A stretch of 55,362 nt of DNA, taken from contig NZ_SNUW01000013.1 in assembly GCF_004376845.1 (NCBI RefSeq), positions 1-55,362 of the forward strand, in the 5' to 3' direction. Positions 26,245-50,425 of the stretch are shown here, in pieces; the stretch's first letter is position 1; each line of letters begins with the position of its first letter. The notes under the pieces were generated by a model, which saw nothing but the letters and a program-made list of their open reading frames with translations, was not told the DNA's origin and made no database searches. Made by a program: the position numbers and the translations under genes. Source of the DNA: Psychromonas algarum. Its GTDB lineage: Bacteria; Pseudomonadota; Gammaproteobacteria; Enterobacterales; Psychromonadaceae.

Positions 26245-27249
26245 TTAATCTTCGTTAACAAATGAAGCTGCTTTTTGCATCACTTCAATACCTGAACCTG
26301 GTATATGTCCATTTTCACTCAAGTGACGACGCCATGCACGTGCACCTGGTAATCCTTGAAACAATCCTAACATATGACGAGCTATTCGATTTAAATGCAC
26401 ACCCTGACTAAGTTGTGATTCGATATAAGGATACATTTTATCTAATACTTCAAAACGTGTTAAAGGTGTTTTATCACAACCAAACAACTGCTTATCAACT
26501 GAACTTAAAATATATGGGTTAGCATAAACTTCTCTACCCAGCATTACACCATCAACATGTTGTAAATGTGCTTCACATTCAGAAAGTGTTTTAATACCAC
26601 CATTAATTGCAATCGTTAATTCAGGAAAGTCTTGCTTTAATTTATAAACACGTTGGTAATCTAATGGAGGAACATCACGATTTTGTTTAGGGCTTAAACC
26701 ACTTAACCAAGCTTTTCGCGCATGCACAATAAAAGTGTCACAACCCTTTGATTTCACTTTTTCAATAAAATCACATAAAAACTCATAAGAGTCTAATTCA
26801 TCAATACCAATGCGTGTTTTTACCGATACTGGTAAACCACTGGCATCTTGCATCGCTTTTACTGCATCAGCAACAAGATCACCTTCTGCCATCAAACAAG
26901 CACCAAAGCGACCATTTTGTACGCGGTCAGATGGGCAACCCACATTTAAATTGATTTCATCGAAACCGCGTGTCGCAGCAGCTTTAGCTGATTGAGCTAA
27001 ATCTAATGGTGCAAAACCACCTAGTTGCAAACAAACAGGATGTTCCGCAGCATCTTTTTGTAAGTAATCACCTTTACCATATAAAATAGCCCCAGTAGTG
27101 ACCATCTCTGTGTATAACAAAGTATTTTTACTCATTAAACGATGAAAATATCGGCAATATTGATCAGTCCAATCAAGCATAGGGGCTATGGAAAATCTAT
27201 TTGAAACGTGTTTTTTATTTTCTTTACTATTTATCAATGAGTTAACCAC
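26245..27249 (-). CDS. dusA: tRNA-dihydrouridine synthase DusA, with an island-derived start
   Basis: DusA uses FMN and NADPH to reduce uridines in the tRNA D-loop. Landmarks are intact: [28 protein letters not shown] with the catalytic Cys, [14 protein letters not shown], and NGGI. The first codons are not native. From the island boundary (27167-27195) upstream, the sequence belongs to the mobile element, and the original start is found 23 kb away at 50363-50425. The listed start is GTG at 27249. A TTG at 27237 has a better ribosome site (AGGTGG, 8-base spacer). Either keeps the frame through NRFSIAPML. Confidence 0.93.
27167..27195. other. attL: left attachment site of the island inside dusA
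   Basis: This 29-bp segment begins GTCCAATCAAGCAT and repeats at 50373-50401 in the same orientation with two mismatches. It encodes the SIAPMLDWT region of DusA on the minus strand. The integrase gene starts about 220 bp inside it. Confidence 0.88.
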
Positions 27250-27415: not shown

Positions 27416-28546
27416 ATGGCATCTGTAATTATTGAAAAAAGAGTTGGTAAAACAGGTAACATTACCCACCGAGCAAAAGTCCAGCAAACGCACGGTGGAA
27501 AAGTAATCGACAGGCTATCTAAGACATTCAAAACAAAAACACTTGCCAAAACGTGGGCGAATAAAATTAAAAAAGAGATGGAAGATAAGTTTGAACGAGT
27601 CAAAGCTGGTATTTATCGCCCTGAATCAGAATTAGCAGAAGTTACTATTGGCGAGCTAATAACGAGGTATCTTACAAACTCTCGTATATCCCCAACAATT
27701 GGTAGAACTAAAGGCTTTGTTCTTAGATCCTTATTAAATTATGAAATATCATCTATTCTAGCGAGTAACTTGCGAGCTAGTGATGTAGTTAAACATTGTG
27801 AAGAACGATTCAGCGAACCTACTAATCCATTACCTCAAACCATCTATCACGATGTAACCTACTTAAAATCGGTAATGGATGCGGCCAAAGGTGGACTTAA
27901 GGTTAATGCCGATAGTAAATACCATAATGAAGCAATTTCATCTTTAGAGCTGCTAAATCTAATCGGAAGATCCAAACCACGAAGCCGCAGACCAACCAGA
28001 GAAGAGCTAAAATTAATGGAAGAGCATTTAATCAAACGCTCTAAGCATAGGTCAGCTAAAATCCCTTACGGCGATATTTTACAAATATCGTTACTTACTG
28101 CAATGCGTATTTCTGAAATCACACGAATAGAATGGACTGATTTAGACCACGAAAATAAAACAGTGATAATTCGAGATAGAAAAGATCCAAGGAGTAAAGA
28201 AGGCAATGATTGGGAAATTCCGTTATTGGGAGGGGCTTATGAAATTATAATGAAGCAGAAAAAAGATCCAGAGCAACCCGAATTAATTTTCCCTTATAAC
28301 CCTCGTTCTGTAACTGCTGGTTGGCAAAGAGTTAGAAAAAAACTAAACATCAGCAATTTACGTTATCACGATTTAAGACGAGAGGCCGCTTCTCGATTAG
28401 CTGAAATGGGTTTGCCAATTAACATAGTTGCTCGAATAACAGGGCATAAAAACATTAATATATTGCACAACATCTACGCCCAAATTGATATCAAAGAGTT
28501 CGGTAAAAAAGGATATGCAAAGTATCTAAAAGAAGATATTTCCTAA
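27416..28546 (+). CDS. int: Tyrosine integrase of the dusA island
   Basis: This site-specific recombinase of 376 residues has the full catalytic set: Arg231 (AMRISEITR), Lys256, His318 and Arg321 (HDLRR), His344 (GHKN) and nucleophile Tyr354. The N-terminal third should contain arm-binding and SAM-like core-binding domains. It lies next to attL and is transcribed away from dusA, the standard arrangement for integrases that use a gene's 5' end. GATCCCA repeats immediately upstream may regulate it. Confidence 0.95.
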   Translation: MASVIIEKRVGKTGNITHRAKVQQTHGGKVIDRLSKTFKTKTLAKTWANKIKKEMEDKFERVKAGIYRPESELAEVTIGELITRYLTNSRISPTIGRTKGFVLRSLLNYEISSILASNLRASDVVKHCEERFSEPTNPLPQTIYHDVTYLKSVMDAAKGGLKVNADSKYHNEAISSLELLNLIGRSKPRSRRPTREELKLMEEHLIKRSKHRSAKIPYGDILQISLLTAMRISEITRIEWTDLDHENKTVIIRDRKDPRSKEGNDWEIPLLGGAYEIIMKQKKDPEQPELIFPYNPRSVTAGWQRVRKKLNISNLRYHDLRREAASRLAEMGLPINIVARITGHKNINILHNIYAQIDIKEFGKKGYAKYLKEDIS

Positions 28547-32675: not shown

Positions 32676-32684
32676 TTTACTCGT

Positions 32685-32998: not shown

Positions 32999-33412
32999 TT
33001 AAAGTCGTTTCTTGGTGATAGTTCGATTTTTCTTAGCTTTATGCTTTAAAGCAATGGCATTTTGAAGCTCATTCGCAAGCTTTGGATCAACCACTCGAAG
33101 CGCTGAAATAGCCCTATTCACTTGATCAAGTGATAGATAAAGTGTGGTATCAAGCGAGTCTACTTCTGCCTGTATCTCTTCAACTAATGACTGTTCGGAC
33201 TCAATACGATCCAGCAGATTTTTTGAAGGAGCTTCTATCTTCTCCAATATTTTATCTCGTAAAATAATACTGTTTTTTAACTTATCATTTTTCATCATTA
33301 ACAATTTATCAGTCAGAAACTCAGACACACTCAACGCCTGTGTTTTTTGTAATTCTGCTTTTGCCGTATTAACCAGGCATTGTTTGTTATCTTTCTTCTT
33401 ATTATTTTTCAT
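32999..33412 (-). CDS. Hypothetical basic coiled-coil protein upstream of the mob genes
   Basis: This small protein of 137 residues is unrecognised. Its N- and C-termini are Lys-rich (KNNKKKDNK; KHKAKKNR) and its middle is a likely coiled coil (DRIESEQSLVEEIQAEVDS). I start at 33412, where AAGGAAATAGGT precedes ATG; a start at 33430 is also open. It is divergent from mobC across the probable oriT, the position often held by relaxosome accessory proteins. That role is an inference. Confidence 0.6.
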   Translation of the reverse strand: MKNNKKKDNKQCLVNTAKAELQKTQALSVSEFLTDKLLMMKNDKLKNSIILRDKILEKIEAPSKNLLDRIESEQSLVEEIQAEVDSLDTTLYLSLDQVNRAISALRVVDPKLANELQNAIALKHKAKKNRTITKKRL

Positions 33413-33771
33413 ACCTATTTCCTTAGTCATCTATTACAGCAATAGCATAGCTAACAGGCTTTGCAAGAAACATAAGTAATTGGCCCACTTGGGTTATTTG
33501 ACAAATCGTAAAAATATGAGTGGATAGATATTAGGAAATAAGACAGTTTTATAGCTCGGCAAGTTGTGCCACGGGTCCGTAGCCTTGTTTTTAAAAATGA
33601 TAAATCATTTTAAAAAAGAGTGGTGATTGATAACCAAAAATACATTTAAAAATCTTATTGCATTCGATATTTTAAAAACATTTCCCGTTATCAATCTTCG
33701 CTTAAAACCATCATCAAGCATTGCCTGTTTTACTTCCTCATTACATTTGGATTATTAAGGAGAAAGTAAAA
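33413..33771. other. Candidate origin of transfer (oriT) region
   Basis: This 359-bp non-coding gap precedes mobC and the relaxase gene. It contains a GGCA/TGCC inverted repeat (33558-33570) and a short GC-rich CGGGTCCG. A perfect 8-bp inverted repeat, AAAATGAT / ATCATTTT (33594-33611), follows. Structured DNA just upstream of mob genes is where oriT normally lies. I cannot place the nick site. Confidence 0.5.
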
Positions 33772-34146
33772 ATGGAGTGCAATCGTAAAAATAAAGAAAA
33801 AATAATTGTTCGTTGTTCAGGTGAAAAAAAAGCCGAGTTATTGGCAATTAAAGAGAGTTTACAGGTAGATACTTGGCTAGAAATGGTTGAGCTATTAATC
33901 AGTGAAAAAGAGATAGCTCCCCCTAAAACCATCATTCAAGATGATCAGTATCTAATGAAAATACTCACTGAGTTAAGGCGGATTGGTAATAATTTAAACC
34001 AGCTAACTAGGCACTGTAATACCAACAAAGCAATATCACTGGATGAAGTTAAACAGTTGAAAAAATTAGCAACCTCTGTTTCTCGATTAAAAAACAAAGT
34101 CATTAAAACTTTTGTTGTTAAAAGAGCTAAAAAAGGAGGTGCTTAA
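33772..34146 (+). CDS. mobC: MobC-family relaxosome protein
   Basis: This is a 124-residue protein with a ribbon-helix-helix-like N-terminus (IIVRCSGEKKAELLAIKESL) and the MobC hallmark RRIGNNLNQLTRHCN near residue 80. MobC proteins bind oriT and help the relaxase nick it. I start at the ATG at 33772 with AAGGAGA upstream; a longer frame from 33721 is unlikely. The stop overlaps the relaxase start by one base (TAATG). Confidence 0.85.
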   Translation: MECNRKNKEKIIVRCSGEKKAELLAIKESLQVDTWLEMVELLISEKEIAPPKTIIQDDQYLMKILTELRRIGNNLNQLTRHCNTNKAISLDEVKQLKKLATSVSRLKNKVIKTFVVKRAKKGGA

Positions 34147-35960
34147 TGGCTATTGCCAAAATCCTTCATGAGGGCGAAAAACTATATCAGCTTAAAAGAA
34201 CCATTAAATATAATAGTGTTGCTAAAGAGTGGCTGAACTCAGCAGATAACCCTCGTTTAATTGGTGCGTTATCAAACTTGGGAGTTATTGATATAACCGA
34301 TCAGCAAGCTTATGATCAGTTTATGAAAGAGTTTATTAAAGAAGTCACATTAAATAAATCCCTTTCAACCAATAAGCGCCAGACTAAGCTTTATTCTCAC
34401 GATGTAGTGAGTTTTGCGGAACTCGATAACCAGCAACGCTCACAAGATGAATTAACTAAAATTAGTCTAGAAATACTAAACACGGTTTATGATATGGATA
34501 ACACGCCTTATATTCTATGGCCACAAACAGACAATAAACACGGGTTACACTTTCATATCGTTCGTTCAATGTATTCCAATAATGGCGAGTATCAACGAGT
34601 TAAACAATCAAAATTGAAACTACGATCGGCTTGCGAAAAAGCAGAGAAAAAGCACTCTCTTGTGCTAACGGGTAAAAATATTAAAAACACACCCAAAATC
34701 AAAAATGATCCAATGCTAAAAGTGTTTAAAAATAAAAAATCAGAAGCTAATTATCTGCACCAGAAACGCCTCAACGAGGCGATAAATCAAGATATTCCAC
34801 TCATTAAGCTAAAACGAAATGTTCATAATGTAATGCTCACTACGACTTACCAAAGTGATTTAGAAATTGAAGAACAGCAACGCTTTGAAGCGGTAAATAT
34901 TAAAATATCTGATAAAGAAGAGGTTAATAACGAGTTAAACAGCATTAAAAAAACAATATTTTCACTCTATAAAAAATCAGAAAATGAAGCGGAGTTTTTA
35001 AAGCAAATCACCGATAAAAAAATTACCGTTGAACTGCTTAAACACAGTAAATCAGGCAAAAATAAAGGCATCGTTTTTCACTATAAAGACCAATCTATTT
35101 CTGGAGGAAAAATATCTAGTTCAATGACATTAGGCAAGATTAAACAACGCTTTCCAAACTTCATTAACACACTTGAAAAACCACCTACATTTAGTCAAAA
35201 AGGAGCAAAACCAGTTAGCCTACTGGACTTTCATATAGAGCAGATTAACAAATATTATAAACAGCGCAGTAACAAAAATAACGGAGATATTTTAATATAT
35301 TTTGGCAAGAAAAATGTAGAGCAAAGACCTCATAACTTTAACCTTAAATTATCGCACCAACGAGATAAAATCAGCTTTGGCCCAGCAACACCCAATGATT
35401 TTGACCTGAAATTAGCGCTTGATGTTGCACTACAAAACGGCTGGAAAGGTGCAATTATATCTAACTGTAGCCGTGATTTTTTAAAACGTAATATGGCGAT
35501 TGCTTATAAACAAGATCCTAAGCTATTGTTTTATTTTCAGTCTGATAAACCTAATTTGTTAACTTATGATGATTTAAAAGCGATTAAAAATGACCTTACC
35601 GCCACAGAGTTAAAAACTGCAATAAGAAATAATTTAATCTGCGAGAAAGACACCCATAAAATGATTGAAGCGTTAAAAGAAGTAGCTAAAACTCCGCAGG
35701 CAATAGGATTTGCAGACGCACTTAAAAAAGGCTTTTCAATTAAAGATCTTGATAATAAAACAGAACAAGAGTTAGCAACTTTTCATAAAAAAAAATATTT
35801 CAATACAATTAAATCACCAAGTAAAACAATATTATCTACCGAAAAATTAAAAGATGGTCGTCAAACTGCTCTCGATGATATAACAAAAGCAATTGATGAG
35901 TATGAGCCACTTACCTCTGATGTTAAATCAAAGGTAACGGCAAAAATTAATAAACCATGA
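34146..35960 (+). CDS. mobA: Relaxase (mobilization nuclease)
   Basis: The N-terminal relaxase domain has the His cluster of the MobA/VirD2 type: His85 in YSHDVVSF and the HGLHFHIV motif (His132, His135, His137). The catalytic Tyr is probably among Tyr14 and Tyr22. The C-terminal part contains ALDVALQNGWKGAIISNC followed by FLKRNMAIAYKQDP. This resembles the LPD7 domain found in large conjugation proteins. It should nick oriT and pilot the DNA strand during transfer by a helper element. It is translationally coupled to mobC and converges on hsdS. Confidence 0.87.
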   Translation: MAIAKILHEGEKLYQLKRTIKYNSVAKEWLNSADNPRLIGALSNLGVIDITDQQAYDQFMKEFIKEVTLNKSLSTNKRQTKLYSHDVVSFAELDNQQRSQDELTKISLEILNTVYDMDNTPYILWPQTDNKHGLHFHIVRSMYSNNGEYQRVKQSKLKLRSACEKAEKKHSLVLTGKNIKNTPKIKNDPMLKVFKNKKSEANYLHQKRLNEAINQDIPLIKLKRNVHNVMLTTTYQSDLEIEEQQRFEAVNIKISDKEEVNNELNSIKKTIFSLYKKSENEAEFLKQITDKKITVELLKHSKSGKNKGIVFHYKDQSISGGKISSSMTLGKIKQRFPNFINTLEKPPTFSQKGAKPVSLLDFHIEQINKYYKQRSNKNNGDILIYFGKKNVEQRPHNFNLKLSHQRDKISFGPATPNDFDLKLALDVALQNGWKGAIISNCSRDFLKRNMAIAYKQDPKLLFYFQSDKPNLLTYDDLKAIKNDLTATELKTAIRNNLICEKDTHKMIEALKEVAKTPQAIGFADALKKGFSIKDLDNKTEQELATFHKKKYFNTIKSPSKTILSTEKLKDGRQTALDDITKAIDEYEPLTSDVKSKVTAKINKP

Positions 35961-36000
35961 TTAATTTTAAAGAATAGGAGTTTAAATCATCCACTATTAC

Positions 36001-37494
36001 CTAAAATGATTCGTTTATTACAGATATTAGCAGTTTTTTAGATTCTATCTCAGAATATAATACCTCTCTTTCTAATTGTTCTAGTAACTTTATGGATAAT
36101 TTAACTTTTTTCTTTATTTCTAATATCTCTTTTTCTGGGGGTAAAGGTATCAATATATTATCCATCTTATTTTTTGGAAGTCCCTCTCGACCAGCCCCTG
36201 TTTGAACATTAATAATTTCATTTTGAAAATAAGAAGAACAAATAACAATGTGTAAATATTCAGTAAGTAATGTAAACACAGGCCTTATTATTGCCACGTG
36301 TTGATTGATGTTACCTTCATCAAATATAGTATTTACAATACAGCAACGTCCGATTGATCCTCCTGTTATATTTAATAATAGATCGTGAGGTTGAACTTTA
36401 GTTCCTTGCATTTTTTTATGGATTTCATCTGAAATATACGCAATATCACTCAACCGTAAACCATCGTTATATACATTTTGGGACCTAATAAACTTAATAC
36501 CCTGCTCGATATACGCAGATTTTCCACCTCTTGGAGTGCTACCAGAACCAGTTTTAGAGCATAGATCTCCTAAGCGAACCCATTCCCAATTATCAGGTAT
36601 TAAGAATGGAACTGTATTATTCAAAACTGGAGCTAATTTTTTTTCTTTTTTAATTTTTTTTTCTGAAATAAGTTCTAACTTCTGTGAATAAACTTTATTG
36701 AATAAATTATTTGCAGGCTCAAACTTCGTATTTTTACGCCAATTTTCTGTTCCTTTTCCTTGAATTGCATCAGACAGAATAGATTTATATAAAAGCTTAA
36801 CATTTTCTTGTTGAGCCAAGCATTCAGAGAGCATATTTTTACAAGAATCATACCCAGATAATGCACGTGCAATTTTGACTTCTAATTGATCATACCCACT
36901 AACTTTAACCCCCTTCGATAGTTTAATAGCGTCAGATTGCTCTTCATCGGTACAGTATGGGAAAGATAAGTTTTTTAATTTATTAGCGTTTATACTTGGC
37001 CTGAATTCACCTTTATTTAAAGAAACAATTTGAGACCAATAGGCATAACTATTTAAAAATAAATTAATAAATGCGGGCTTGCTCTCTTTATTTGCTCTTA
37101 TTCTAATTAAGTAGCCTGCATATATTGATAAGCTTGGGGGTTCAGAAATAAGAAAACTTTTTCCTGTCGTGCCTCCTGTTCTAGCTATTAATAAATCACC
37201 TGAGTTTAACATATAGGTTGATTCATCTTTACAATCACAAAATGGAACAGAACTCCATTTAACTTTTCCATCTGTTATATCACTGATTCTAAGAAATTTA
37301 TTTCTCCCACTTTTTTGGGCTGAAGCATTATAGCCATATTGGGTGCTTTCAATAACATCACAAAGCTTTAAAGACCTCTCGTGTTTATCAAAGAAATGCT
37401 TCAATATAATAGTATTTTTTATCTGCTTTCTTATTTCTTCTTCTTTTTTAATAAAAGTAAGGGGAATAAACTTGAAATGAAAACTCATAGACAT
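36001..37494 (-). CDS. hsdS: Type I restriction-modification specificity subunit HsdS
   Basis: HsdS sets the DNA target of the type I complex. Two target-recognition domains are visible: TRD1 (about residues 40-200, with the GDLLIARTGGTTGKS turn) and TRD2 (about 300-460, starting DNWEWVRLGDLC, with DLLLNITGGSIGRC). Conserved helical spacers lie between them and at the end. The spacer before TRD2 is encoded by homopolymer runs (T8, T6 and T9 on the plus strand, 36637-36662) that could slip. The start overlaps the end of hsdM by 10 bp. It is the last gene of the sir2-herA-hsdR-hsdM-hsdS unit. Confidence 0.92.
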   Translation of the reverse strand: MSMSFHFKFIPLTFIKKEEEIRKQIKNTIILKHFFDKHERSLKLCDVIESTQYGYNASAQKSGRNKFLRISDITDGKVKWSSVPFCDCKDESTYMLNSGDLLIARTGGTTGKSFLISEPPSLSIYAGYLIRIRANKESKPAFINLFLNSYAYWSQIVSLNKGEFRPSINANKLKNLSFPYCTDEEQSDAIKLSKGVKVSGYDQLEVKIARALSGYDSCKNMLSECLAQQENVKLLYKSILSDAIQGKGTENWRKNTKFEPANNLFNKVYSQKLELISEKKIKKEKKLAPVLNNTVPFLIPDNWEWVRLGDLCSKTGSGSTPRGGKSAYIEQGIKFIRSQNVYNDGLRLSDIAYISDEIHKKMQGTKVQPHDLLLNITGGSIGRCCIVNTIFDEGNINQHVAIIRPVFTLLTEYLHIVICSSYFQNEIINVQTGAGREGLPKNKMDNILIPLPPEKEILEIKKKVKLSIKLLEQLEREVLYSEIESKKLLISVINESF

Positions 37495-38894
37495 AATTCG
37501 CTTAGAATTGAAGCAATTCTTTTTTGACTGAGCTGAATATTTTCAATAATTTCACCTTTTGAAAACTCAACTTCTTCAACACCTTCATCGGGATTATCAA
37601 TATCTAAGCTAAAATTATTTAAATCTTCCAGCTTAACTTTCCAAGAAAGTTCTGTTTCTTGTCGGTTTCCCCACCACTTAATAAGTGGTTCAAACTCATT
37701 AAAGCGGATAGGCTTGGTTTTTGAATAACTTTTCTGACCTTCAGGAAGTTTATGTTCGTAATACCAAATCTCTTTAGTAGGTTCACCCTTGGTGAAAAAT
37801 AAAAGGTTCGTGCTTACTGTGGCTGGAAAAAATGTGCTTTGTGGTAAACGAACAATAGTATGAAGGTTACACTGTGTCAGTAATCGCTCTCTAATACGAG
37901 CCTTTACACCATCTCCTGTAATTGACCCATCAGGTAGAACAATTGCAGCTCTCCCTTTATCTTCTAATAGTTGAATCATTAAAATTACAAACAGATCTGC
38001 ACTCTCTTTGCATCGAAATGTTGCAGGAAAGTTAGTTTCAACACCTTCAGCAATACTCGCACCAAATGGAGGATTAGCTAAAATCACATTCACCTTATCT
38101 TTTTTACTGATGCTATTATATTCTTTCTTTAAGCTATCAATGTAATGATAATCAGGCACATCAATCTCATGTAAAATAAGGTTAGTTAGCCCTAATACAT
38201 AAGCAACTGGCTTCAATTCCCAGCCAGATATACTTTGTTGCAATGTTTGTTCATCTGTAACCGTCTTAACATATTCAGATCTGACATGATCAATAGCGGC
38301 CGTTAAAAACCCACCTGTTCCACAAGCTGGATCTAATACCTTTTCACCTAAAACAGGATCTACCATTTGGGTCATTAATTCAGTAACAGCTCTAGGAGTA
38401 TAATATTCTCCTTTGTTACCTGCATCTCTTAATTCTAGTAATATACTTTCATATATATCACCAAAAACATGCTTATCTTCAGACTTATTAAAATCAACTT
38501 CATTTAGCTTATTGATGACTTTTCTCATCTCAAAGCCTGATTTCATATAATTATTATTACCATCAAAAACTTCTTGAATTAACTCGGCTCTTTTAGTTTT
38601 ATTTTTTTGGGTTAATTCTTTTAAAGCAGGAAAAAGCTCATTATCAATAAACTTAATTAATGGCTCTCCTGTTATTCCTTCTTGGTCTGTTGCCCATGTT
38701 CTCCATTGCAGGTCTTCGGGTATAGCTGAAATATAGTCGTCTTTTATTACTTCTAGCTCTTGATCTTTATCATCCATTATTTTAAGAAAAAGCATCCACC
38801 CAAGTTGCTCTAATCGCTGTGCATCGCCTGAAATACCTCTGTCTTGCCTCATGATATTTCTGATACTACTTACTACTGCACTAATATTTGCCAT
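37485..38894 (-). CDS. hsdM: Type I restriction-modification methyltransferase HsdM
   Basis: HsdM methylates adenine at N6. The helical HsdM N-domain (about residues 1-130) precedes the catalytic domain. That domain has the SAM-binding motif DPACGTGGF and the catalytic NPPFG. The 469-residue size and the hsdR-hsdM-hsdS order fit the type IB (EcoAI/EcoEI) family. It begins immediately after the hsdR stop codon and overlaps hsdS, so all three are translationally linked. Confidence 0.95.
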   Translation of the reverse strand: MANISAVVSSIRNIMRQDRGISGDAQRLEQLGWMLFLKIMDDKDQELEVIKDDYISAIPEDLQWRTWATDQEGITGEPLIKFIDNELFPALKELTQKNKTKRAELIQEVFDGNNNYMKSGFEMRKVINKLNEVDFNKSEDKHVFGDIYESILLELRDAGNKGEYYTPRAVTELMTQMVDPVLGEKVLDPACGTGGFLTAAIDHVRSEYVKTVTDEQTLQQSISGWELKPVAYVLGLTNLILHEIDVPDYHYIDSLKKEYNSISKKDKVNVILANPPFGASIAEGVETNFPATFRCKESADLFVILMIQLLEDKGRAAIVLPDGSITGDGVKARIRERLLTQCNLHTIVRLPQSTFFPATVSTNLLFFTKGEPTKEIWYYEHKLPEGQKSYSKTKPIRFNEFEPLIKWWGNRQETELSWKVKLEDLNNFSLDIDNPDEGVEEVEFSKGEIIENIQLSQKRIASILSELCL

Positions 38895-41267
38895 CTATGC
38901 TACCTTGTATAATTCTTGTTCTAGTTCAGCTAATGCTTCTAAATAGCCTAATTTATTTCCAAATGCTTTTATGATCTCAATCGGAGATCCATGTTGATTG
39001 ATAGGATCAAGTTTCAACACTTCCATACTTTCAATGGTTAATAAACCATCATCAGCATACTTTTCTAATAAACTTTGAATAACAGCTTGAGCTTTTTCGC
39101 CATATTTAGCGAAATAATGTCGTTTTTTTACTTGTTGAGCACGCTCTTTACGAGTGAGAGGGGGTTGTTCAAAAGCTATATGGCATATTAGATCAAAAGG
39201 GTCGAAATCTTGCCCTACTTCTTCTTTTAGTATATCAAAAAATATACCTTGCTCTTCTAATGCTTCAACGATTGTCGTTTTTTTATTGGTATTATTCCAT
39301 TTTTTTAAAAAATCAGAGAGCGTAGCAAATTGTTTATTAATATTATCCTTTGTATAGGCTTTAAAGCTCTCAGTGATAATTTTTCCGTCTTCGCCTAAAT
39401 ATTGAACTCGTTCATTAACTACTTTAACTAATACACCATTGATACGAACTTTTTTACGAGGAGGCTCAGTAATTTCTCCTCCGCCCGTTAATTCTGGAGG
39501 CTCAGTTAAATCGACTTCTTCACCCGTTTCTATATCAATAATTGGATCATCAGTCGCTTCATCTTCAATACCACTTAAATCATCAACTTCTATTACATCT
39601 TTGATCATGACAGGATCGCCATCAAAATCGGGATCAGCAAACAGGTTAGTTACATTTCTAAAGTCCATAATAGTAAAATATTGTTTGCCATACTCTTCAT
39701 TAATACGTGTGCCACGCCCAATGATTTGCTTGAATTCAGTCATTGAAGCAATGTTACTATCAAGCACAATTAATTTGCAGGTTTGAGCATCAACACCTGT
39801 AGTCATTAACTTTGAGGTAGTGGCAATAACAGGGTAAGTTTCACTAGGATTAATAAAATTATCTAACTCTCGCTTTCCTTCTTCATTATCACCAGTGATT
39901 TGCATAATATATTTATTATTCTCAGAGAATAAATCTGCATTTTCATTAACTAATGCGCTTCTCATACCTTCAGCATGTTCAATATCAATGCAGAATACAA
40001 TTGATTTAGAGAAACGGTCATTACCTTTTAAAAACTCCGTTATTTTTTTAGCTACCAGTTTTCTTCTATCATCTACGACAATATTTTTATCAAAATCAGA
40101 ACGGTTATATATCCTATCTTCTACTAGCTCTCCATCTTTATCTTTAAAGCCTTTGGGTGGTCGCCAACCTTCGGCATCAATGTCTAAAGTAACTTTTACA
40201 ACTTTATAAGGGGCAAGGAAACCATCATCAATGCCTTGCTTGAGAGAATAAGTATAAATAGGATCGCCAAAGTAATCCTGATTAGATACATCTTCAGTTT
40301 CTTTTGGGGTAGCAGTTAAACCAACATGAGTAGCTCCATTAAAATACTTTAATATTTCACGCCATTTACTGTCTTCCTTTGCACTTCCTCTATGACACTC
40401 ATCTATTACGATAAGATCAAAAAAGTCAGGGCTAAATTGTTTATATGCATCATCTGATTTACTATCAGAAAGCCCCTGATACAGCGCTAAATATATGTTG
40501 TATGCCGTATCTATTTTCTTATGCTTTATAATTGTCATCGCATCTTTAAAATGCCTAAAATCCCCACGAGCAGTTTGATCTATTAGGGCGGTTCTATCGG
40601 CTAAAAATAAGATTCTTTTTTTCATACCACTTTTCCATAACCTATATATGATTTGAAAAGCGGTATATGTCTTACCTGTTCCCGTAGCCATCACAAGGAT
40701 GATACGATTTTGTTTTTTAGCAACAGCTTCTACTGTGCGGTTTATTGCAATCTGCTGATAATAACGAGGTGAACGTCCAGACGTATCAAAGAAGTAATCT
40801 TGAGAAGCAACTGTTTCAATTTCTTTCGTTTTTATCCCTTTATATTGTTTATATTTTTCCCATAATTGTTCTGGAGTAGGAAACTGGTCTAGTGTTAATT
40901 CAGATTCCATTTCACCGCTAGTATTAGTTTTATCGTGAAAGTAAAAACTATCCCCATTACTGCTAAAAACACAGGGGATATCTAATATCTCTGCATAATC
41001 CAAAGCTTGTTGCATACCTGATTTTACTGATTTTTTATTATCTTTCGCTTCGATAATTGCAATAGGGACATTAGGCTTATAGAAAAGAATATAATCCGCA
41101 AACTTTCTTTTGCCTCGTGTAGTTAATTTCCCTTTTACATAAATACGTCCATCGGTAAAAAATATCTCTCTTCCAATTTGCGTTTGCTCATCCCAGCCAG
41201 ACTTTAATATTGAGGGAGTAATAAACTTAGCCTTAATATCGGATTCAGATAAATCTTTTTTATTCAT
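38895..41267 (-). CDS. hsdR: Type I restriction endonuclease/translocase HsdR
   Basis: HsdR translocates DNA and cuts it. The N-terminal PD-(D/E)xK nuclease is complete, with Asp58 in KFADYILF and Glu73-Ala-Lys75 in IIEAKD. The SF2 helicase motor has ATGTGKT, DECHRGSA, LTATP, and QIIGRGTRI. The C-terminal region resembles the EcoEI R-subunit domain. At 790 residues it is type IB in size. I start at 41267, where AAGGAAGT precedes ATG; a longer frame reaches 41306. It follows herA by 45 bp. Confidence 0.93.
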   Translation of the reverse strand: MNKKDLSESDIKAKFITPSILKSGWDEQTQIGREIFFTDGRIYVKGKLTTRGKRKFADYILFYKPNVPIAIIEAKDNKKSVKSGMQQALDYAEILDIPCVFSSNGDSFYFHDKTNTSGEMESELTLDQFPTPEQLWEKYKQYKGIKTKEIETVASQDYFFDTSGRSPRYYQQIAINRTVEAVAKKQNRIILVMATGTGKTYTAFQIIYRLWKSGMKKRILFLADRTALIDQTARGDFRHFKDAMTIIKHKKIDTAYNIYLALYQGLSDSKSDDAYKQFSPDFFDLIVIDECHRGSAKEDSKWREILKYFNGATHVGLTATPKETEDVSNQDYFGDPIYTYSLKQGIDDGFLAPYKVVKVTLDIDAEGWRPPKGFKDKDGELVEDRIYNRSDFDKNIVVDDRRKLVAKKITEFLKGNDRFSKSIVFCIDIEHAEGMRSALVNENADLFSENNKYIMQITGDNEEGKRELDNFINPSETYPVIATTSKLMTTGVDAQTCKLIVLDSNIASMTEFKQIIGRGTRINEEYGKQYFTIMDFRNVTNLFADPDFDGDPVMIKDVIEVDDLSGIEDEATDDPIIDIETGEEVDLTEPPELTGGGEITEPPRKKVRINGVLVKVVNERVQYLGEDGKIITESFKAYTKDNINKQFATLSDFLKKWNNTNKKTTIVEALEEQGIFFDILKEEVGQDFDPFDLICHIAFEQPPLTRKERAQQVKKRHYFAKYGEKAQAVIQSLLEKYADDGLLTIESMEVLKLDPINQHGSPIEIIKAFGNKLGYLEALAELEQELYKVA

Positions 41268-41312
41268 AGTGCGACTTCCTTCATACCCATTAAGGGCAGT
41301 TAACATTAAGGT

Positions 41313-43280
41313 CTAATTAGGAGTTTGTTTATTAGATGGGTGACTCAAAGGAGCTTTAAACCACTCTTCTGATATTTTGCAATTTTCACTATCAGGTGCA
41401 GGTTTAGCCTCATGAACTTTTAGATGTAACGGCATTGAAACACAATTACCAAAAACTAAAGCTTCACCTGGAACAGACTGTTTAATTTTATTAACAAAGT
41501 CATCAGAAAAAAATGGCAAGATTGCATACACATAACGCATATCGACCTCATTTTGAATCCGATGGATAATAAAATTAGCGCATTGCGATAAAACTGTTTC
41601 TGATAGTTCCGATGGTCTTTGAGAAGAAACTAGAAGATATAACGAATATTTACGACCTTCCCTTGCTATCTTTTCAAAGATATTTTCTTTAAAAACATAT
41701 TGATAATCTTTTTTAATATACCTATGAGCTTCATCAAGTATCAGGTGGATAGGCTTCTCTCGCCTTTCTTTATTTAAATATTGTTTACGTTCTTCAAATA
41801 TTAAACGTGATGTAACGCTTGTTAGGGTTTCTAGAGAATCAGGTGATAGCTCACTTGTATCAATAATCACCATTTGAGTTTGATGTGCATTATTTTCATC
41901 AAAGTCCCAAAAATCATCTAGAAATGATTTTGCATCAGTAATTGATGCATTGGCACGAGCACGCATAAACTCACAATTAGTATTTTCCAGAAAATAATCT
42001 AAACGAGTAAGCATGGTAGAAGTATATTCCCTCATACGCTTATTACCACGAGAGTCTTCTTCAAGTAGCGCTAGGTTTGAAGCAATCTTTAAAAACTTAT
42101 AATCGAAATATTCACCATGAGGTAACTTTTCACAAACAACTGAATCAACATTTTCACTATTAATCTTTTGGATAACGACTTTGGTTTTGTTTAATAACTC
42201 ATCATTATTAGAGCCATAACTTAATCGGCAAGCATTTTTTAATGTCTCTAAATCCGAGCTAAGTTCTGATTGATTTGCGACTAATTTTAAAGACGTATTT
42301 GAATTAATAATCAACTGTAAGCTTGCGATGATGCTTGATGCTGTTGTGATATTAGTAGTATCAGAATCACCTTGGTTAATAATATTCAATATGATGGAAC
42401 AGATTTTATACCTTAAATAATCAACCGTTTTAGCAACCTCATTCCCATCATTTGAAAGTAACTTATAGAAAATAAATGCTTCTTGGAGAACTTTGTCCCA
42501 AAATGGTCTTTGCGTGGCTTCTGTCGCTAATAAAAACGCACTCCACTCATCAATCGACATCAAAAAATGGGGTAAACAAAAGGGTTTAAAGTCGGAATTA
42601 AAATTACTAAGGTTCGGCTTATATAATTTCACTTTAATACTATTGTCAGATGAATACTTAAAGGCATTTTGGTATTCACCATTTACATCAAAAACCAATA
42701 TTCTCGAACCTAAAGCAGTATTATTTTGTTTCTTATGGATCTCTTGAATAATATGAGCAATTGTATTTGATTTACCGCTACCAGAATTACCCAAAACAGC
42801 AGAATGAATATTAAAAAACTTATCAATATTTATATCAATGGGGTAGTTAATTAAACTTTTACTTTTACCTAATGAAAAACTTTGGTGGATTCGGTTTTCT
42901 TTATCGTTTGCTGTAATACCTAATATCACTTCCATATCTTTAAAAGTAATAATTCCAACATTACTATAAAGACTTGGGAAAACGCCTACTCCTAAACTAA
43001 ACCGATGATCACGAGATATAGTCCCAATTGGCTTCAACAATAGTTCTCTATTTCCCTCTAAATCAAAGGCTTTTTCGTTATATTGTAAGTCATTATCAAA
43101 AATAGACATGACTTCAGAAACAATAGTTTCACCTACTGCATTTGTTGATTTTAAATAACTGCCAATATTACCAAAGTAATATATATCACCATTAAGATTA
43201 ATTGAGTTGCCTCGAATCTCCGAGGACACTTTGACTTTAAACTGGTTGTAATTTACTGATATTATTTTCCCTATATTCAT
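41313..43280 (-). CDS. herA: HerA-like ATPase of a SIR2-HerA defence pair
   Basis: This is a DUF87/HerA-type hexameric ATPase of 655 residues. An N-terminal HAS-barrel-like beta domain (about 1-90) precedes Walker A GNSGSGKS (164-171). Walker B LILDEAHRY and the sensor-like VSSQRPSELS follow near the C-terminus. HerA ATPases paired with SIR2 proteins form large antiphage complexes. The ATG directly abuts the sir2 stop codon (TAAATG), so the two are coupled. It continues into the type I R-M genes on the same strand. Confidence 0.9.
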   Translation of the reverse strand: MNIGKIISVNYNQFKVKVSSEIRGNSINLNGDIYYFGNIGSYLKSTNAVGETIVSEVMSIFDNDLQYNEKAFDLEGNRELLLKPIGTISRDHRFSLGVGVFPSLYSNVGIITFKDMEVILGITANDKENRIHQSFSLGKSKSLINYPIDINIDKFFNIHSAVLGNSGSGKSNTIAHIIQEIHKKQNNTALGSRILVFDVNGEYQNAFKYSSDNSIKVKLYKPNLSNFNSDFKPFCLPHFLMSIDEWSAFLLATEATQRPFWDKVLQEAFIFYKLLSNDGNEVAKTVDYLRYKICSIILNIINQGDSDTTNITTASSIIASLQLIINSNTSLKLVANQSELSSDLETLKNACRLSYGSNNDELLNKTKVVIQKINSENVDSVVCEKLPHGEYFDYKFLKIASNLALLEEDSRGNKRMREYTSTMLTRLDYFLENTNCEFMRARANASITDAKSFLDDFWDFDENNAHQTQMVIIDTSELSPDSLETLTSVTSRLIFEERKQYLNKERREKPIHLILDEAHRYIKKDYQYVFKENIFEKIAREGRKYSLYLLVSSQRPSELSETVLSQCANFIIHRIQNEVDMRYVYAILPFFSDDFVNKIKQSVPGEALVFGNCVSMPLHLKVHEAKPAPDSENCKISEEWFKAPLSHPSNKQTPN

Positions 43281-44519
43281 TTATGCAGTTCCTTTTGCAC
43301 CATTTTTTTCAGCAGTCAAATTACTAATAAAGTTTTTAAGTAAACTAATATCTTCAAACTCTTCTAAATCAGGTAAAAAATTATCCACTATATATTTGAA
43401 ATAATGTATTTTTTCACTTTCTACCTCACCAAATATTTTATAAATCCGCCTATCATTTACCTTAAAAATCTCTTTATCAGCGTAATTCCCAAAAACAACA
43501 ATACTAATAGATGAGTTTGAAGCTAATGCCTGATATATAATATTATTTAAGTGTTCATCGCTAAAACTATAACCAACAACAAATAAAACACTATGAGGCT
43601 GTAATAGCTTCTTTTGGAACTCTCTAATTAAATCAGAGTATGGAGCACCTAAGCTCTTATTCTGTTTTAATGGGGTTGGGTATATTAAGATATTGTCTTT
43701 AGGAACTTCATCACTATGTTTAGTAGCTACTTCTTGGATTTGAAAAAAAGAATTAGTCTTACTTTCTCTCCAACTGATTGAGCCGTGCAATTTATATAAA
43801 TAAACCATATTATCCAACGGCTCATATTTATGCACTTCTGCGTCAATTTTTCTGGAAAAAGTATAATTGAATCGAGCAGGGTTAAACAAACGATCTAAGC
43901 CACCACCAAATCCATTATTATAATTAATGTTTGAGTAATCGAGAGCTTTCTCATTAAATAAGTCATTGTTTGTTGTGAATATATTAACTCTTGATAAGTC
44001 TTTATTTCTTAGAGTTATTTTTTGATAAAAGTCTTTATATAGCGCTAAACTATTTTGCGAATTAGGCGTTTCAAAATCAATGTTAATTTGGTTAAACATC
44101 TCATTTTCAATTACCTCTATCAAAAAAGTGGTCTCAGTGTATTGCGGAGAAGCTTCTTCACCAGATCCAATCATATAAGCTCTTCTTGAATAAAGAACCC
44201 CTAATATATCTTCAAGATTTGATTTTGTAGAAGACTTTATTTTTTCAAATAGTGTTTTTAATGATGAACGCAGAGGTGTTTTTGCATCAGGTGAGTTAGG
44301 GAGTTTAGGGGGTTCTGGAATAGACAGCTTTAAATCAATACTAGAGACCATCTCTTTCATTGTGGGAATTGCCCCCGAACTTGCTCCAGCTCCAAGTAAG
44401 AAATGAACATTTTTTACATTTGATAAGTCTAAAATTTTTTGCTTAATTTTATCTAAGCTGGCTGATGGCTCATCATCTTTAACTAAATCTTCTTTACCTT
44501 GATAAAAATTGACATTCAT
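43281..44519 (-). CDS. SIR2-family NAD-consuming defence protein
   Basis: This SIR2-fold protein of about 412 residues has the NAD-binding GAGAS motif (43-47) and LHGSISW, which carries the usual catalytic-region His. GYSFSDEHL is typical of defence SIR2 proteins. Such proteins deplete NAD+ or act with HerA on nucleic acid during phage attack. I start at 44519 with GGTGAG upstream; an in-frame ATG at 44549 lacks a site. It is the first gene of the five-gene defence unit and diverges from ardC. Confidence 0.88.
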   Translation of the reverse strand: MNVNFYQGKEDLVKDDEPSASLDKIKQKILDLSNVKNVHFLLGAGASSGAIPTMKEMVSSIDLKLSIPEPPKLPNSPDAKTPLRSSLKTLFEKIKSSTKSNLEDILGVLYSRRAYMIGSGEEASPQYTETTFLIEVIENEMFNQINIDFETPNSQNSLALYKDFYQKITLRNKDLSRVNIFTTNNDLFNEKALDYSNINYNNGFGGGLDRLFNPARFNYTFSRKIDAEVHKYEPLDNMVYLYKLHGSISWRESKTNSFFQIQEVATKHSDEVPKDNILIYPTPLKQNKSLGAPYSDLIREFQKKLLQPHSVLFVVGYSFSDEHLNNIIYQALASNSSISIVVFGNYADKEIFKVNDRRIYKIFGEVESEKIHYFKYIVDNFLPDLEEFEDISLLKNFISNLTAEKNGAKGTA

Positions 44520-44715
44520 TTTATTCTCACCGTTTTTTGAAAAAAGCACCTTAACTCAAGATATCAAACAATAAAGTGCAAAGACATGATATAAGGTAAA
44601 AATTTGAATTTTTATCAGTAAAATATTTAGTGAAGAAAATAAAAAAGTTAGTTAAATAGCGCAAAAAAAACTAAATTAAAACCTTCTATTGAAAGAAGTA
44701 AAGTAAATGATACGA

Positions 44716-44750
44716 CATAAGTAACCACCTCATAAAAGGAGTTACTTATG
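44716..44750. promoter_or_regulatory. Perfect inverted repeat enclosing the ardC ribosome site and start codon
   Basis: CATAAGTAAC (44716-44725) and GTTACTTATG (44741-44750) are exact inverted copies. The right arm contains the ardC ATG and the loop contains its AGGA ribosome site. As RNA it would hide the start; as DNA it could be an operator for the divergent region. Confidence 0.65.
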
Positions 44751-46175
44751 AAAAACACAAGATCGAGAGCTGGACGCTCTACCGCAAAAACAGACCAACA
44801 GAAACAAATCCTCGATAGATTATTCGATTACTTCTCTAAACCCAAAGGCGAAAAACCAACCTCAGACAGTGATGTTGAAGTAAGTTTTTATCGCAGTGCT
44901 TTAAAAAAGTTGCCTCTCAACTTTCACAACAATGAATATAATGGAGTAAATATTATAATGTTGCTTCAAGAAGGAGAGAGCAACGCAACCAAAGTTCCAA
45001 TTTACTCAACTTTCAAACAAGCTTCTGATTTACTTGAACAACATAAAGACCAGCTTCCACCTAAATCTGAAACATTCGATCCAGATAAGCCACTCAAAGG
45101 TATGACGCTTGACGCTCAAGTCGTAAAATATCTTGAAACCTATAAAAAAGATGGGGAATTGATCAGCAAAAGTGTTTTTGAAAAAGAGACACGAGGTATG
45201 TCATTCAATGAAATGCGTGAAAATGGATATCAAAAGCGCAAAGGATTAAAGCCATACAAAGTTTTTGCAATAGAAAAAATCAAGCATTTGTTACCAGAGT
45301 CGTTTATTGAAGAGCGTGATTATTTTGCACGACAAGAAGAGCTGGAAAATAAAAAAATGTCACCTGAGATGGAGGATGTTGAGTTTGTAGAAAAAGCACA
45401 GCTGATCATTGATGCAATGGGTGTTCCAGTGGTTGAGAAAAATCAAGATCGAGCTTTTTATTCTCCAAAAGATGACTGTATTACTATTCCACCCAGAAAT
45501 AAGTTTAAATCTGATAAAGCTTATTTTGCTGTAATTTTACACGAGCTTTCACATAGCACTGGTCATCCCTGCCGATTAAACAGAAAACAAAATAATGCGT
45601 CTAATTCTAAAGCTTATTTTTCAGAGGAATTAATTGCAGAGACGAGCACAATGTTCATTTGTTTAGATGAAGGACTTGAAACTTTCAATGCACACGCATC
45701 TTATTTAGAGGGTTACGCTAGCCAATTTAAAGATCAGAAAAAAGCACTGTTAAGTATCTGTAAACAGGCTAAGGAAGCACAAAACTATATCAGCCGTAAA
45801 GTGATGAAACATAAATTAGACTTGTCGATACAATCTCCTTATAAAGTGCCTGAAAAGTTAGATTTTGAGCTTAAATTAGCAGACAAACATACCGATGCAT
45901 TAAATGATTATATTGTAAAAAGTGCTAATAACCACAGCCCACTGATACCGTTAAAAAACCAAAAAATAATCGGTTACAATGAGTCTAAAGATGGGATTGA
46001 GGTTTTCACACCCGATAAAAAAGTGGCGCTTACAGGTGTATCAGGCGCTATTGTTCAGCGAGAATTGGACAACTTAAAGTTGCTACAGTCCATTATCCTT
46101 GATGTGTCTGTTGATAATAACGATGAAGCCAAGCCCACCAAAAACAAGCTAAAATCATCACGTTTATCAATATGA
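44748..46175 (+). CDS. ardC: ArdC-type antirestriction protein with zincin metallopeptidase domain
   Basis: The N-terminal ArdC ssDNA-binding domain (about residues 15-110) has the YNGVNIIML strand and the TFKQASDLL segment of the family. A zincin-like peptidase domain follows with HELSHSTGH (265-273), giving the metal-binding HExxH motif, and EELIAE downstream as third ligand region. ArdC proteins help conjugating DNA escape type I restriction in the recipient. It is the divergent neighbour of the island's own type I system, and its start codon is embedded in an inverted repeat. Confidence 0.87.
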   Translation: MKNTRSRAGRSTAKTDQQKQILDRLFDYFSKPKGEKPTSDSDVEVSFYRSALKKLPLNFHNNEYNGVNIIMLLQEGESNATKVPIYSTFKQASDLLEQHKDQLPPKSETFDPDKPLKGMTLDAQVVKYLETYKKDGELISKSVFEKETRGMSFNEMRENGYQKRKGLKPYKVFAIEKIKHLLPESFIEERDYFARQEELENKKMSPEMEDVEFVEKAQLIIDAMGVPVVEKNQDRAFYSPKDDCITIPPRNKFKSDKAYFAVILHELSHSTGHPCRLNRKQNNASNSKAYFSEELIAETSTMFICLDEGLETFNAHASYLEGYASQFKDQKKALLSICKQAKEAQNYISRKVMKHKLDLSIQSPYKVPEKLDFELKLADKHTDALNDYIVKSANNHSPLIPLKNQKIIGYNESKDGIEVFTPDKKVALTGVSGAIVQRELDNLKLLQSIILDVSVDNNDEAKPTKNKLKSSRLSI

Positions 46176-46199
46176 TTTTACCCATCCCAGAACGACAAA

Positions 46200-46220
46200 A
46201 AGCCCTAGATGGGCTTCTTT
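46200..46220 (+). terminator. Terminator after ardC
   Basis: The stem AAGCCC / GGGCTT with a 5-base loop and a CTTT tail begins 24 bp past the ardC stop. Confidence 0.7.
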
Positions 46221-46249
46221 GCGTTACATTAGTCCAAACTAATCTTACG

Positions 46250-46666: not shown

Positions 46667-47102
46667 TACTGATCTCCTTACCAGATTTAGTGTGAATATC
46701 AATTAACTCGGTGATCAGTATCTCTCTTAAATCTTCAAATATTTCAGTTTTTTTATATTCAAGATATTCATCAAAACTATCAAAATCATCATTTCCACCT
46801 CTCGAAAGAAACTCTTCTTCATCACACCAAATATCACCTTTAAACTGAATAGTTTCAGTTTGAACAACGTGATATTCATTAATGACTTCTAAGTATTTCA
46901 ATATTTCTAAAGCAAAATATTCAAAGTCAGGCGTTTTACACGAAAAACAATCATCAATTTTTTCTTCTAATTGCTCAATATCTGTTAGTTCTTCGTGCCA
47001 AAACCAACCTCCATAATCAATTACTACTTTTTCAAGCTTAATTAAGGCTCTTTTTGCGTTAATTTCTTCGTCAAATACAGTTATATTTTTTTCTTTACAC
47101 AT
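46656..47102 (-). CDS. Hypothetical acidic island protein
   Basis: This unrecognised 148-residue protein is strikingly acidic throughout (for example DIEQLEEKIDD and CDEEEFLSRGG). Such charge is seen in DNA-mimic antidefence proteins, but also in many others, so I do not assign a function. The ATG at 47102 has a GGAG site eight bases upstream. It is followed with overlap by the 46250-46666 gene. Confidence 0.6.
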   Translation of the reverse strand: MCKEKNITVFDEEINAKRALIKLEKVVIDYGGWFWHEELTDIEQLEEKIDDCFSCKTPDFEYFALEILKYLEVINEYHVVQTETIQFKGDIWCDEEEFLSRGGNDDFDSFDEYLEYKKTEIFEDLREILITELIDIHTKSGKEISNEK

Positions 47103-47147
47103 TTTTTTTCTCCATAAATGCAACCTCCTTGTTGCGTTAAGTTCCTG

Positions 47148-47561
47148 TTAAAGTTGAATGATTTGCACACCATTGTTTTTCATCTCTTCAAGCTGATAAG
47201 AAAACTCAAAATCTTCAATTAACGAGTTAGCTAATTTTTTCAGAGCTTTACATTTAATCTTTTTCGCTATTTTCTTTCCAAATGCTATTTCTTTATCAGC
47301 TAAATATTCTGTGAGTCCAAATAGCATAATTTTGTCTTTTTCAATCAAACAAAAGCCGTCTTTTGTAAACCTTTTTACATCTCTCGAAGAAACGCAGGCA
47401 AAGCCATTTTCTTCATTAGGGATCGACATAAAATCTATTTTTTCTTTAGACAGCCTCAATAACATCTCCTTTAATTCGCCTTGATGGAATAAGGTTTCGA
47501 TTAATGCTAAATGTTTAGGGTGTTGATTTGCTAAGTTGTTATATTTGTTTATATTTTCCAT
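47148..47561 (-). CDS. Hypothetical island protein
   Basis: This is an unrecognised soluble protein of 137 residues, mixed helix and strand, with a Lys-rich middle (KIAKKIKCKALKK). The start has a good AGAGGA site. It lies 13 bp behind the 47575-47946 gene and 45 bp ahead of the next one, all on one strand, as in an operon. Confidence 0.6.
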   Translation of the reverse strand: MENINKYNNLANQHPKHLALIETLFHQGELKEMLLRLSKEKIDFMSIPNEENGFACVSSRDVKRFTKDGFCLIEKDKIMLFGLTEYLADKEIAFGKKIAKKIKCKALKKLANSLIEDFEFSYQLEEMKNNGVQIIQL

Positions 47562-47574
47562 ATTGTTATCCTCT

Positions 47575-49562: not shown

Positions 49563-49919
49563 ATTAACCTTTGATTCTGCGTGTATCTAAAGAATATCCA
49601 TTCTATGCAGTTGACTAAATATACATCCTCATATAGTGAAATTCACCTATAAGATTTAGCTTGAGCATATAATAACATTAAACACATACTCAAGTCAACA
49701 AATAAATTTTTTAATTATTGACAAGTAAAAAAATTTCATTTCTGTTTTTCTTTTTTATAAAAATACTGTGCAACAACCCTTTTTCAATAAGTGATTACTT
49801 GGGAATATAGACAGAAAAGATTCGAGTTGGTATTGTTTCAATCGTGATGAGTAAATGGATGTCTCACACTGCCGATTTTAATATCGGCTTACTAGACCCG
49901 CTTTTAATTGGGGTCCACT

Positions 49920-50207
49920 ATGAAAAAGAAACAAGAAAATACTGTAACTATGACTCACCACATTTTATTGGCTCAGTTTAGTAATAGACTGTTAATACCA
50001 GTAGAAGAACTGGCTGAATCGTATTTGGGGATTGCTGTTAATACCGCTAAAAGAAAGGCTAAAAGTAACGAGTTACCTTTTCCTTGCTTTAAGATGGGTA
50101 TGAGTCAAAAGTCTCCTTATGTTGTTCATCTGGTGGAATTAGTGAAGTATATAGATAAGCGCACGAATGAGGCTAGAGGTTTATGGAATGAATATCAGTA
50201 TCGCTAA
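49920..50207 (+). CDS. PrtN-family (pyocin activator-like) regulator
   Basis: This protein of 95 residues matches the PrtN family: HHILLAQFSNRLLIPVEELAE, a helix-turn-helix-like GIAVNTAKRKAKSNELPFPCF, and GMSQKSPYVVHLVELVKYID. In Pseudomonas PrtN activates pyocin genes after DNA damage. Small PrtN-like proteins also sit at the ends of integrative elements, where they could act as excision factor or regulator. I start at the ATG at 49920. It lies 165 bp from attR, with GATCCCA repeats between. The target here is unknown. Confidence 0.8.
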   Translation: MKKKQENTVTMTHHILLAQFSNRLLIPVEELAESYLGIAVNTAKRKAKSNELPFPCFKMGMSQKSPYVVHLVELVKYIDKRTNEARGLWNEYQYR

Positions 50208-50362: not shown

Positions 50363-50425
50363 TTAAAGATCTGTCCAATCAAGCATGGGGGCTATTGAAA
50401 AGCGGTTTGTTGGGTAACTTGGCAT
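50363..50425 (-). pseudogene. dusA: Stranded native 5' end of dusA
   Basis: Reading minus from the ATG at 50425 gives [20 protein letters not shown] and then a stop at 50363. This is the original dusA N-terminus: [13 protein letters not shown] is identical to the functional copy 23 kb away. It is cut off from the gene body by the island, and the stop codon is in island sequence. Confidence 0.92.
50373..50401. other. attR: right attachment site of the island
   Basis: This is the second copy of the 29-bp direct repeat (two mismatches to 27167-27195). It begins GTCCAATCAAGCAT and overlaps the stranded dusA start. Confidence 0.88.

Follow-up and report, generated by a model that had tools for sequence, protein, structure and literature searches.

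Five genes on one strand of the Psychromonas algarum contig NZ_SNUW01000013.1 (RefSeq assembly GCF_004376845.1) raise the question of whether a SIR2-HerA defence pair and a type I restriction-modification (R-M) system have merged into one device or travel side by side. The genes sir2, herA, hsdR, hsdM and hsdS, all with open frames, run from 44519 to 36001 on the minus strand of the window, i.e. the whole analysed stretch of 55,362 nucleotides (nt). An earlier note on this DNA had taken their packing to suggest joint expression, perhaps with NAD depletion as a backup when restriction fails or with HerA cooperating with HsdR on phage DNA. We consider it likely that the unit comprises two self-sufficient anti-phage modules in one cargo block of a dusA-integrated element, which came together by recruitment into a slot and not as a conserved joint machine. 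The earlier interpretation is thus supported in part, while functional coupling, be it backup or HerA-HsdR cooperation, gained no direct support here.

43281..44519, minus strand: sir2, SIR2_2-domain NADase-type effector of the SIR2-HerA pair (Pfam, PADLOC, motifs; PDB sequence matches 8yhx, 8j4u and 8w9l)
41313..43280, minus strand: herA, HerA/DUF87 ATPase, its ATG abutting the sir2 stop (Pfam, PADLOC, motifs)
38895..41264, minus strand: hsdR, EcoAI/FtnUII-family type I restriction subunit, with a longer open reading frame (ORF) from 41306 (PDB sequence match 3h1t)
37485..38894, minus strand: hsdM, type I DNA methyltransferase subunit, its ATG abutting the hsdR stop (N6_Mtase at 5e-67, and HsdM_N)
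36001..37494, minus strand: hsdS, specificity subunit with two Methylase_S stretches
44373-44393, 43962-43979 and 43779-43793, minus strand: SIR2 motifs GAGASSG, FTTNND and KLHGS, respectively (from the sequence)
42762-42791 and 41718-41744, minus strand: HerA Walker motifs GNSGSGKSNT and LILDEAHRY, respectively (from the sequence)

Profiles of Pfam, PADLOC and NCBIfam bore out the five gene identities given in the earlier note. The SIR2 protein carries SIR2_2 and matched the PADLOC SIR2 profile at 1.7e-142; the HerA protein carries DUF87 and matched the PADLOC HerA profile at 4e-216. FTTNND and LHGS of SIR2 line up with the PDB chains 8yhx and 8j4u. With Asn and His motifs in SIR2 and the HerA ATPase gene adjoining, the pair belongs to the SIR2-HerA (Nezha) systems. 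NCBIfam NF042942 gave 110 bits on SIR2 at a cut-off of 500, which places the protein outside this NCBI subgroup, and the NCBIfam antiphage HerA models yielded 202 and 176 bits on HerA, under their cut-offs of 850 and 800. HsdR reached 1162 bits with the EcoAI/FtnUII model NF046051 of NCBIfam (cut-off 550) and 1158 bits with PADLOC REase_I. Together with an open HsdM and a two-domain HsdS in the operon this identifies an EcoAI/FtnUII type I R-M system, in which HsdM has the motifs DPACGTGG and NPPF. We take the motifs found in SIR2, HerA, HsdR and HsdM to be catalytic.

The tight same-strand packing was equally confirmed: sir2 abuts herA, hsdR abuts hsdM, hsdM and hsdS overlap by 10 nt, and the largest gap is 48 nt. 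This gap separates herA from the likelier hsdR start at 41264, which is favoured by a GGAAG just upstream and by the NCBIfam match starting at residue 19 of the long ORF; counted from the first hsdR ATG (41306) the distance is 6 nt. For sir2 the ATG at 44519 is likelier than the alternative GTG at 44549.

The earlier note had named absence of the order sir2-herA-hsdRMS from related islands as a finding that would contradict its reading, and for the exact order this is what the examined loci show. We counted 85 SIR2-HerA rows besides the window (47 from genome_contigs, 29 from G-coded genomes and 9 from plasmids), which correspond to 84 distinct places, L157 and L158 being overlapping. The loci are a non-random sample with flanks often cut by contig ends, less than 1500 nt being present on one side in 10 of the 85 rows; the pairs L273, L279, L280 and L281 came to light later and are not included. 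HerA lay directly downstream of SIR2 in 55 of the 56 loci in genome_contigs, and in the exception only 244 nt of sequence are available beyond the SIR2 match. A near-absence of type I neighbours, as obtained by tblastn with the Hsd proteins of the window as queries, was rejected because Pfam revealed, next to some pairs, HsdR, HsdM or HsdS belonging to other families. Therefore, the count was redone with profiles built from seeds of several families; these seeds include the linked loci L008, L109, L161, L175, L191 and L196, which eases the detection of just those.

Type I genes were present in the fetched flanks of 9 of the 85 rows, and in five of these they were tightly linked, that is no more than 300 nt away on the same strand. 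None of the 85 rows had the exact order of the window. In the reverse direction, none of 29 loci fetched for HsdR had SIR2 or HerA in its flanks, which reached up to 8 kb and were in part cut by contig ends. For these 85 rows and 29 loci, a conserved sir2-herA-hsdRMS operon was thus rejected. At E 1e-100 HsdR had matches in 29 of 369 genomes of the class (its own included) and in 40 plasmid records. HerA at E 1e-60 matched in a single one of the 369, the window's own; the patterns used brought up no HerA relatives in viral contigs.

An OLD-family nuclease domain provided the control: a phylum-wide sample listed 61 places, of which we took 40. The control is a single family, and its flanks average about 12.0 kb compared to 13.4 kb for the pairs. 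A type I gene was seen in the flanks of 4 of the 40 control places and was tightly linked in one (L203, with 117 nt between open frames and 134 nt between called genes). Neither any linkage (9/85 vs 4/40, Fisher p 1.0) nor tight linkage (5/85 vs 1/40, p 0.66; p 0.18 if L203 is not counted as tight) differed significantly. The same held for the pairs from G-coded genomes (any 5/29 vs 4/40, p 0.48; tight 3/29 vs 1/40, p 0.30). Thus, at these numbers the linkage is indistinguishable from the level of defence islands. The combination described in the earlier note does exist elsewhere in different orders, for instance in L191, and tight linkage recurs in five other loci, not significantly above the OLD control. 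A PrrC-type guard would call for a conserved association of effector and hsd genes; the SIR2-HerA linkage recurs and is not conserved.

The five tight loci differ in gene order and in hsd family. L008 (Sulfurospirillum) consists of hsdM with a broken frame, sir2, herA and, after 2 nt, a HindI-like hsdR, and no hsdS was seen. In L109 (congener G003) hsdM, hsdS, an AAA_13 gene and hsdR are followed at 102 nt by sir2-herA. L175 (G413) has the end of an hsdM, other genes including hsdS, sir2-herA and, 2 nt further, an hsdR whose best query match is 28% identical. L191 (G514) has hsdR-hsdM-hsdS and, after 4 nt, sir2-herA. In L196, on the Shewanella baltica plasmid pS22302, hsdR, an AAA ATPase gene, hsdM and hsdS precede sir2 by 9 nt. 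Only L109 and L191 combine a full hsd set with a full SIR2-HerA pair. Behind sir2 of L196 we noted a short HerA-like remnant (10049-10318, 52 bits) and then a Tn3 transposase gene.

These orders bear on the proposal that HerA, as a DNA-translocating ATPase, physically works with HsdR on phage DNA. herA directly precedes hsdR in the window, in L008 and in L175, as such a partnership would predict. However, the three HsdR proteins are diverse (EcoAI-like, HindI-like and the distant one of L175), sir2-herA follows the hsd genes in L109, L191 and L196 with herA not beside hsdR, and in solved and studied systems the partner of this type of HerA is SIR2. We therefore regard physical cooperation as very unlikely.

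Several observations weigh against recruitment as the whole explanation. Tight linkage is nominally more frequent beside SIR2-HerA than in the control, and a modest real excess is possible with these numbers. The gap between the modules is only 2 to 4 nt in L008, L175 and L191, and 9 nt in L196. SIR2 genes without herA can also be joined to type I genes. We sampled 20 further SIR2_2 loci, of which 7 are SIR2-HerA pairs within the 85 and 13 are others. In one of the latter, L243 (G471; 3579-11692), a complete type I operon encloses a SIR2_2 gene without herA: hsdM, an ORF, hsdS, the SIR2_2 gene and hsdR follow each other on one strand, and the SIR2 gene overlaps each of its two neighbours by 4 nt. 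In L248 a SIR2-domain gene stands at the contig end downstream of an HsdR-like gene. Compared to the OLD control the sample was not significantly enriched (tight 2/20, p 0.26; type I or HsdR-like match 3/20, namely L243, L248 and L255, p 0.68). L243 and L248 agree with what Makarova and colleagues remarked in 2012 on Sir2 enzymes linked to type I RM, in a paper proposing a possible coupling of immunity with suicide modules (PMC3506569). Evidence for linkage outside the pairs comes mainly from these two loci.

Such loci invite the idea that the Hsd complex silences SIR2-HerA or that its failure triggers it, so that a phage with an anti-restriction function would provoke NAD+ depletion, much as in PrrC-EcoprrI, a described precedent (PMC12707154). 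The window resembles PrrC-EcoprrI in having a growth-stopping effector gene beside hsd genes; it differs in that the effector is an NADase-type pair and PrrC is a tRNase, and a guard role in the window would be putative, drawn by analogy. The tight linkage in L191, L109, L196, L175 and L008, the nesting of SIR2 in the type I operon of L243 and an ArdC-like anti-restriction gene adjoining the unit all speak for a guard. On the other hand, 76 of the 85 SIR2-HerA rows lack type I genes in the flanks fetched, the linked pairs are scattered in the SIR2 tree and tied to different hsd families, which does not suggest a co-evolved interface, and SIR2-HerA also occurs next to type III-like genes (L279) or with no R-M genes in view (L280, L281). 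Moreover, the Vibrio cholerae pair works with no type I genes in its island (PMC11559045). Guarding of HsdRMS by SIR2-HerA is hence unlikely in our view. The same low probability is given to a broader version, in which SIR2-type effectors with or without HerA were repeatedly joined to type I R-M as guards, the window, L008, L109, L175, L191, L196 and L243 being separate inventions.

The scatter of the linked pairs was examined in a SIR2 tree of 84 rows, i.e. the window and 83 of the 85 pair rows; L013 and L060 were dropped with SIR2 frames below 250 amino acids. The six linked rows require five label changes, all of them forced by well-supported branches. Shuffled labels needed 5.8 changes on average and 72 of 500 shuffles were equally low; thus the clustering of linked rows is weak. 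The tree implies that linkage of SIR2-HerA with type I genes arose repeatedly and separately. Its details are unsure because of long branches, including those of L191 and L109. At odds with scatter, the SIR2 proteins of L175 and L196, both linked to type I genes, are sisters, the sole sister pair among the linked rows. A bond of this SIR2 clade to type I genes was nevertheless rejected, because the relative L279 has type III-like genes, L280 no R-M genes in view, and L281, a third and more distant relative, is unlinked by annotation with no R-M genes seen. In L279, a contig of the viral collection, a type III-like methylase gene, a res gene, two unknown ORFs and sir2-herA form one run (2493-12912). 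Upstream of the closest relative of the window's SIR2, in L012, lie genes for a DUF1156 protein, a PIN protein and an SNF2/PLD helicase, none of them a type I gene.

The five-gene unit is exchangeable cargo of a mobilizable element that is integrated in a dusA-like gene (26245-27249, minus strand), the product of which we take to be DusA. The features of the element are:

27416..28546, plus strand: tyrosine integrase (Phage_integrase, 2.4e-25)
49908..50207, plus strand: excisionase-like protein (PHROG 1300, 3e-19)
33721..34146, plus strand: MobC-like mobilisation protein (profile search)
34146..35960, plus strand: MobA/VirD2-like relaxase (profile search; 88% identical in congener G007)
44748..46175, plus strand: ArdC-like anti-restriction protein with a zincin domain, part of the element backbone (ArdcN, MPTase-PolyVal; PHROG anti-restriction protein)
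27162..27203, no strand: att-like repeat 1 of 42 nt, in the 5' part of the dusA-like gene
50368..50409, no strand: att-like repeat 2 at the other element end, a direct repeat 86% identical to 27162-27203
35770..44705, no strand: cargo slot, DNA without match in G007

An integrase and imperfect direct repeats in the dusA 5' end mark it as a dusA-associated island. Islands of this kind have been described, one of them with type I R-M in Acinetobacter baumannii (PMC4482086), and they agree with the P. algarum element in integrase, insertion at the dusA 5' end and imperfect direct repeats, the A. baumannii island also in type I R-M cargo. The P. algarum element differs by its relaxase and its SIR2-HerA pair, SIR2 being a term not looked up in that paper.

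Among 24 genomes of the host family, all of one genus, G007 harbours a sister element. Its backbone is shared with the window at 30402-31606, 32681-35769, 44706-46221 and 47086-49727 with 84-92% DNA identity, while the integrase end of the window (27.2-30.4 kb) had no match to the G007 element. The identity ends at 35769 and resumes at 44706, which delimits the slot. Between relaxase and ardC the G007 slot holds a different type I R-M system made up of HsdM, HsdS, two ORFs without Pfam matches and HsdR. SIR2 relatives were found in 3 of the 24 genomes of the genus and none was found in G007; plasmid DNA close to the unit was not found either. Judged from these two elements, type I R-M blocks appear to be exchanged in the slot, with SIR2-HerA as an optional companion. 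A second, smaller cargo site is suggested by an HNH-endonuclease gene (31725-32675) flanked by direct repeats (31335-31533 and 32681-32893; 155 nt at 92% and 39 nt at 87%), since in the sister element of G007 these two repeats lie close together and the HNH gene is missing.

The same setting could be read as an addiction or maintenance device, in which type I R-M and SIR2-HerA disfavour loss of the element and exclude rival elements. The unit is indeed cargo of an element with integrase and relaxase, and the slot holds type I R-M in both members seen; a dusA island with type I R-M has also been described (PMC4482086). Defence and maintenance are not mutually exclusive, though. Moreover, type I R-M systems are usually weak post-segregational killers. 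An addiction or maintenance device is quite improbable.

With regard to expression, a promoter scan gave 27 sites compared to 40.8 in shuffles, and the two terminator-like sites found were both on the opposite strand; neither search revealed a signal beyond chance within the unit. Because internal promoter and terminator signals beyond chance are lacking, co-transcription of sir2-herA-hsdRMS is plausible and, judged from the layout, probable. The unit promoter is probably situated in the divergent region upstream of sir2, a candidate site suggested by the gene arrangement and with no strong promoter match in the scan:

44550..44747, no strand: divergent intergenic region between sir2 and the ardC-like gene

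At its ardC side, 44717-44749 at the start of the ardC-like gene, we noted a 9-nt inverted repeat (ATAAGTAAC...GTTACTTAT) as a possible operator.

With two independent modules recruited into one slot, the proposed course of events is as follows. Both modules would be read from the putative promoter between sir2 and ardC, on the same strand and with gaps of at most 48 nt. By analogy to the EcoAI family, HsdRMS would methylate self DNA and cut unmodified incoming DNA. SIR2-HerA, going by its characterised relatives, would act as an NADase-ATPase complex that depletes NAD+ once infection is sensed. Restriction would come first, and NAD depletion would act independently on phages that survive it. 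Several defences would thereby have been recruited into one slot of the element and be shipped together. A 12:6 complex with NADase activity on infection is known for this family, and the SIR2-HerA pair of Vibrio cholerae kept phage resistance alone when the rest of its island was deleted (PMC11559045). Since that pair defends alone and HsdRMS restricts unmodified DNA, two independent layers are favoured.

The components have close counterparts. The pair shares with Nezha/SIR2-HerA (8yhx, 8j4u) the adjacency and order of sir2-herA, the SIR2_2 and HerA domains and the FTTN/LHGS motifs; unlike the window, the island of the Vibrio cholerae pair contains Gabija, toxin-antitoxin systems and type II R-M in place of an hsdRMS run (PMC11559045). 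The Hsd genes match EcoAI/FtnUII systems in the order hsdR-hsdM-hsdS and in an HsdR far over the cut-off; in the Hsd genes themselves no difference was seen, yet they are preceded by sir2-herA. Packing of a second defence module with a type I operon is also known from the RRDM island of enteropathogenic Escherichia coli, where DarTG2 is embedded in a type I R-M operon and RptR represses the island promoter (PMC12255303). That island has another effector in a nested position. With no gap longer than 48 nt, the unit of the window has no room for a separate regulator gene; the search did not extend to small ORFs around it.

Thus the unit is of a known kind, in which a mobile element carries type I R-M together with a closely packed abortive-infection-type module, and it resembles a recurring assembly of defences more than a new machine. 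We found no title or abstract opening naming SIR2-HerA and type I R-M as one unit, in a literature coverage from which subscription papers and preprints were mostly absent. If the modules are mere neighbours, the locus is a clear example of an element swapping whole defence blocks, with a related backbone whose common slot takes different type I R-M systems, SIR2-HerA being present in one case and absent in the other. Should the modules be coupled, the five linked loci would join the window as a ready natural test set for the 2012 hypothesis of immunity-suicide coupling, with the unlinked pairs as controls. Recurrent, separately assembled pairings make this old hypothesis testable.

Some minor observations concern related loci. 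EcoAI-type hsd loci carried other cargo, namely a Schlafen/AlbA gene and a Cap4-nuclease gene in L091 (11825-15816), viperin, AAA ATPase and PD-(D/E)XK genes in L120 (5506-18409) and two DUF262 genes in L093 (13798-17005). Another contig of the P. algarum genome encodes an OLD-family nuclease domain (G000:C38:29159-29353). Finally, on plasmids of Lactobacillus and Listeria (L096, 6782-11538; L194, 8965-15645) a SIR2-HerA pair lies near an ArdC-like gene, just as it does in the window.

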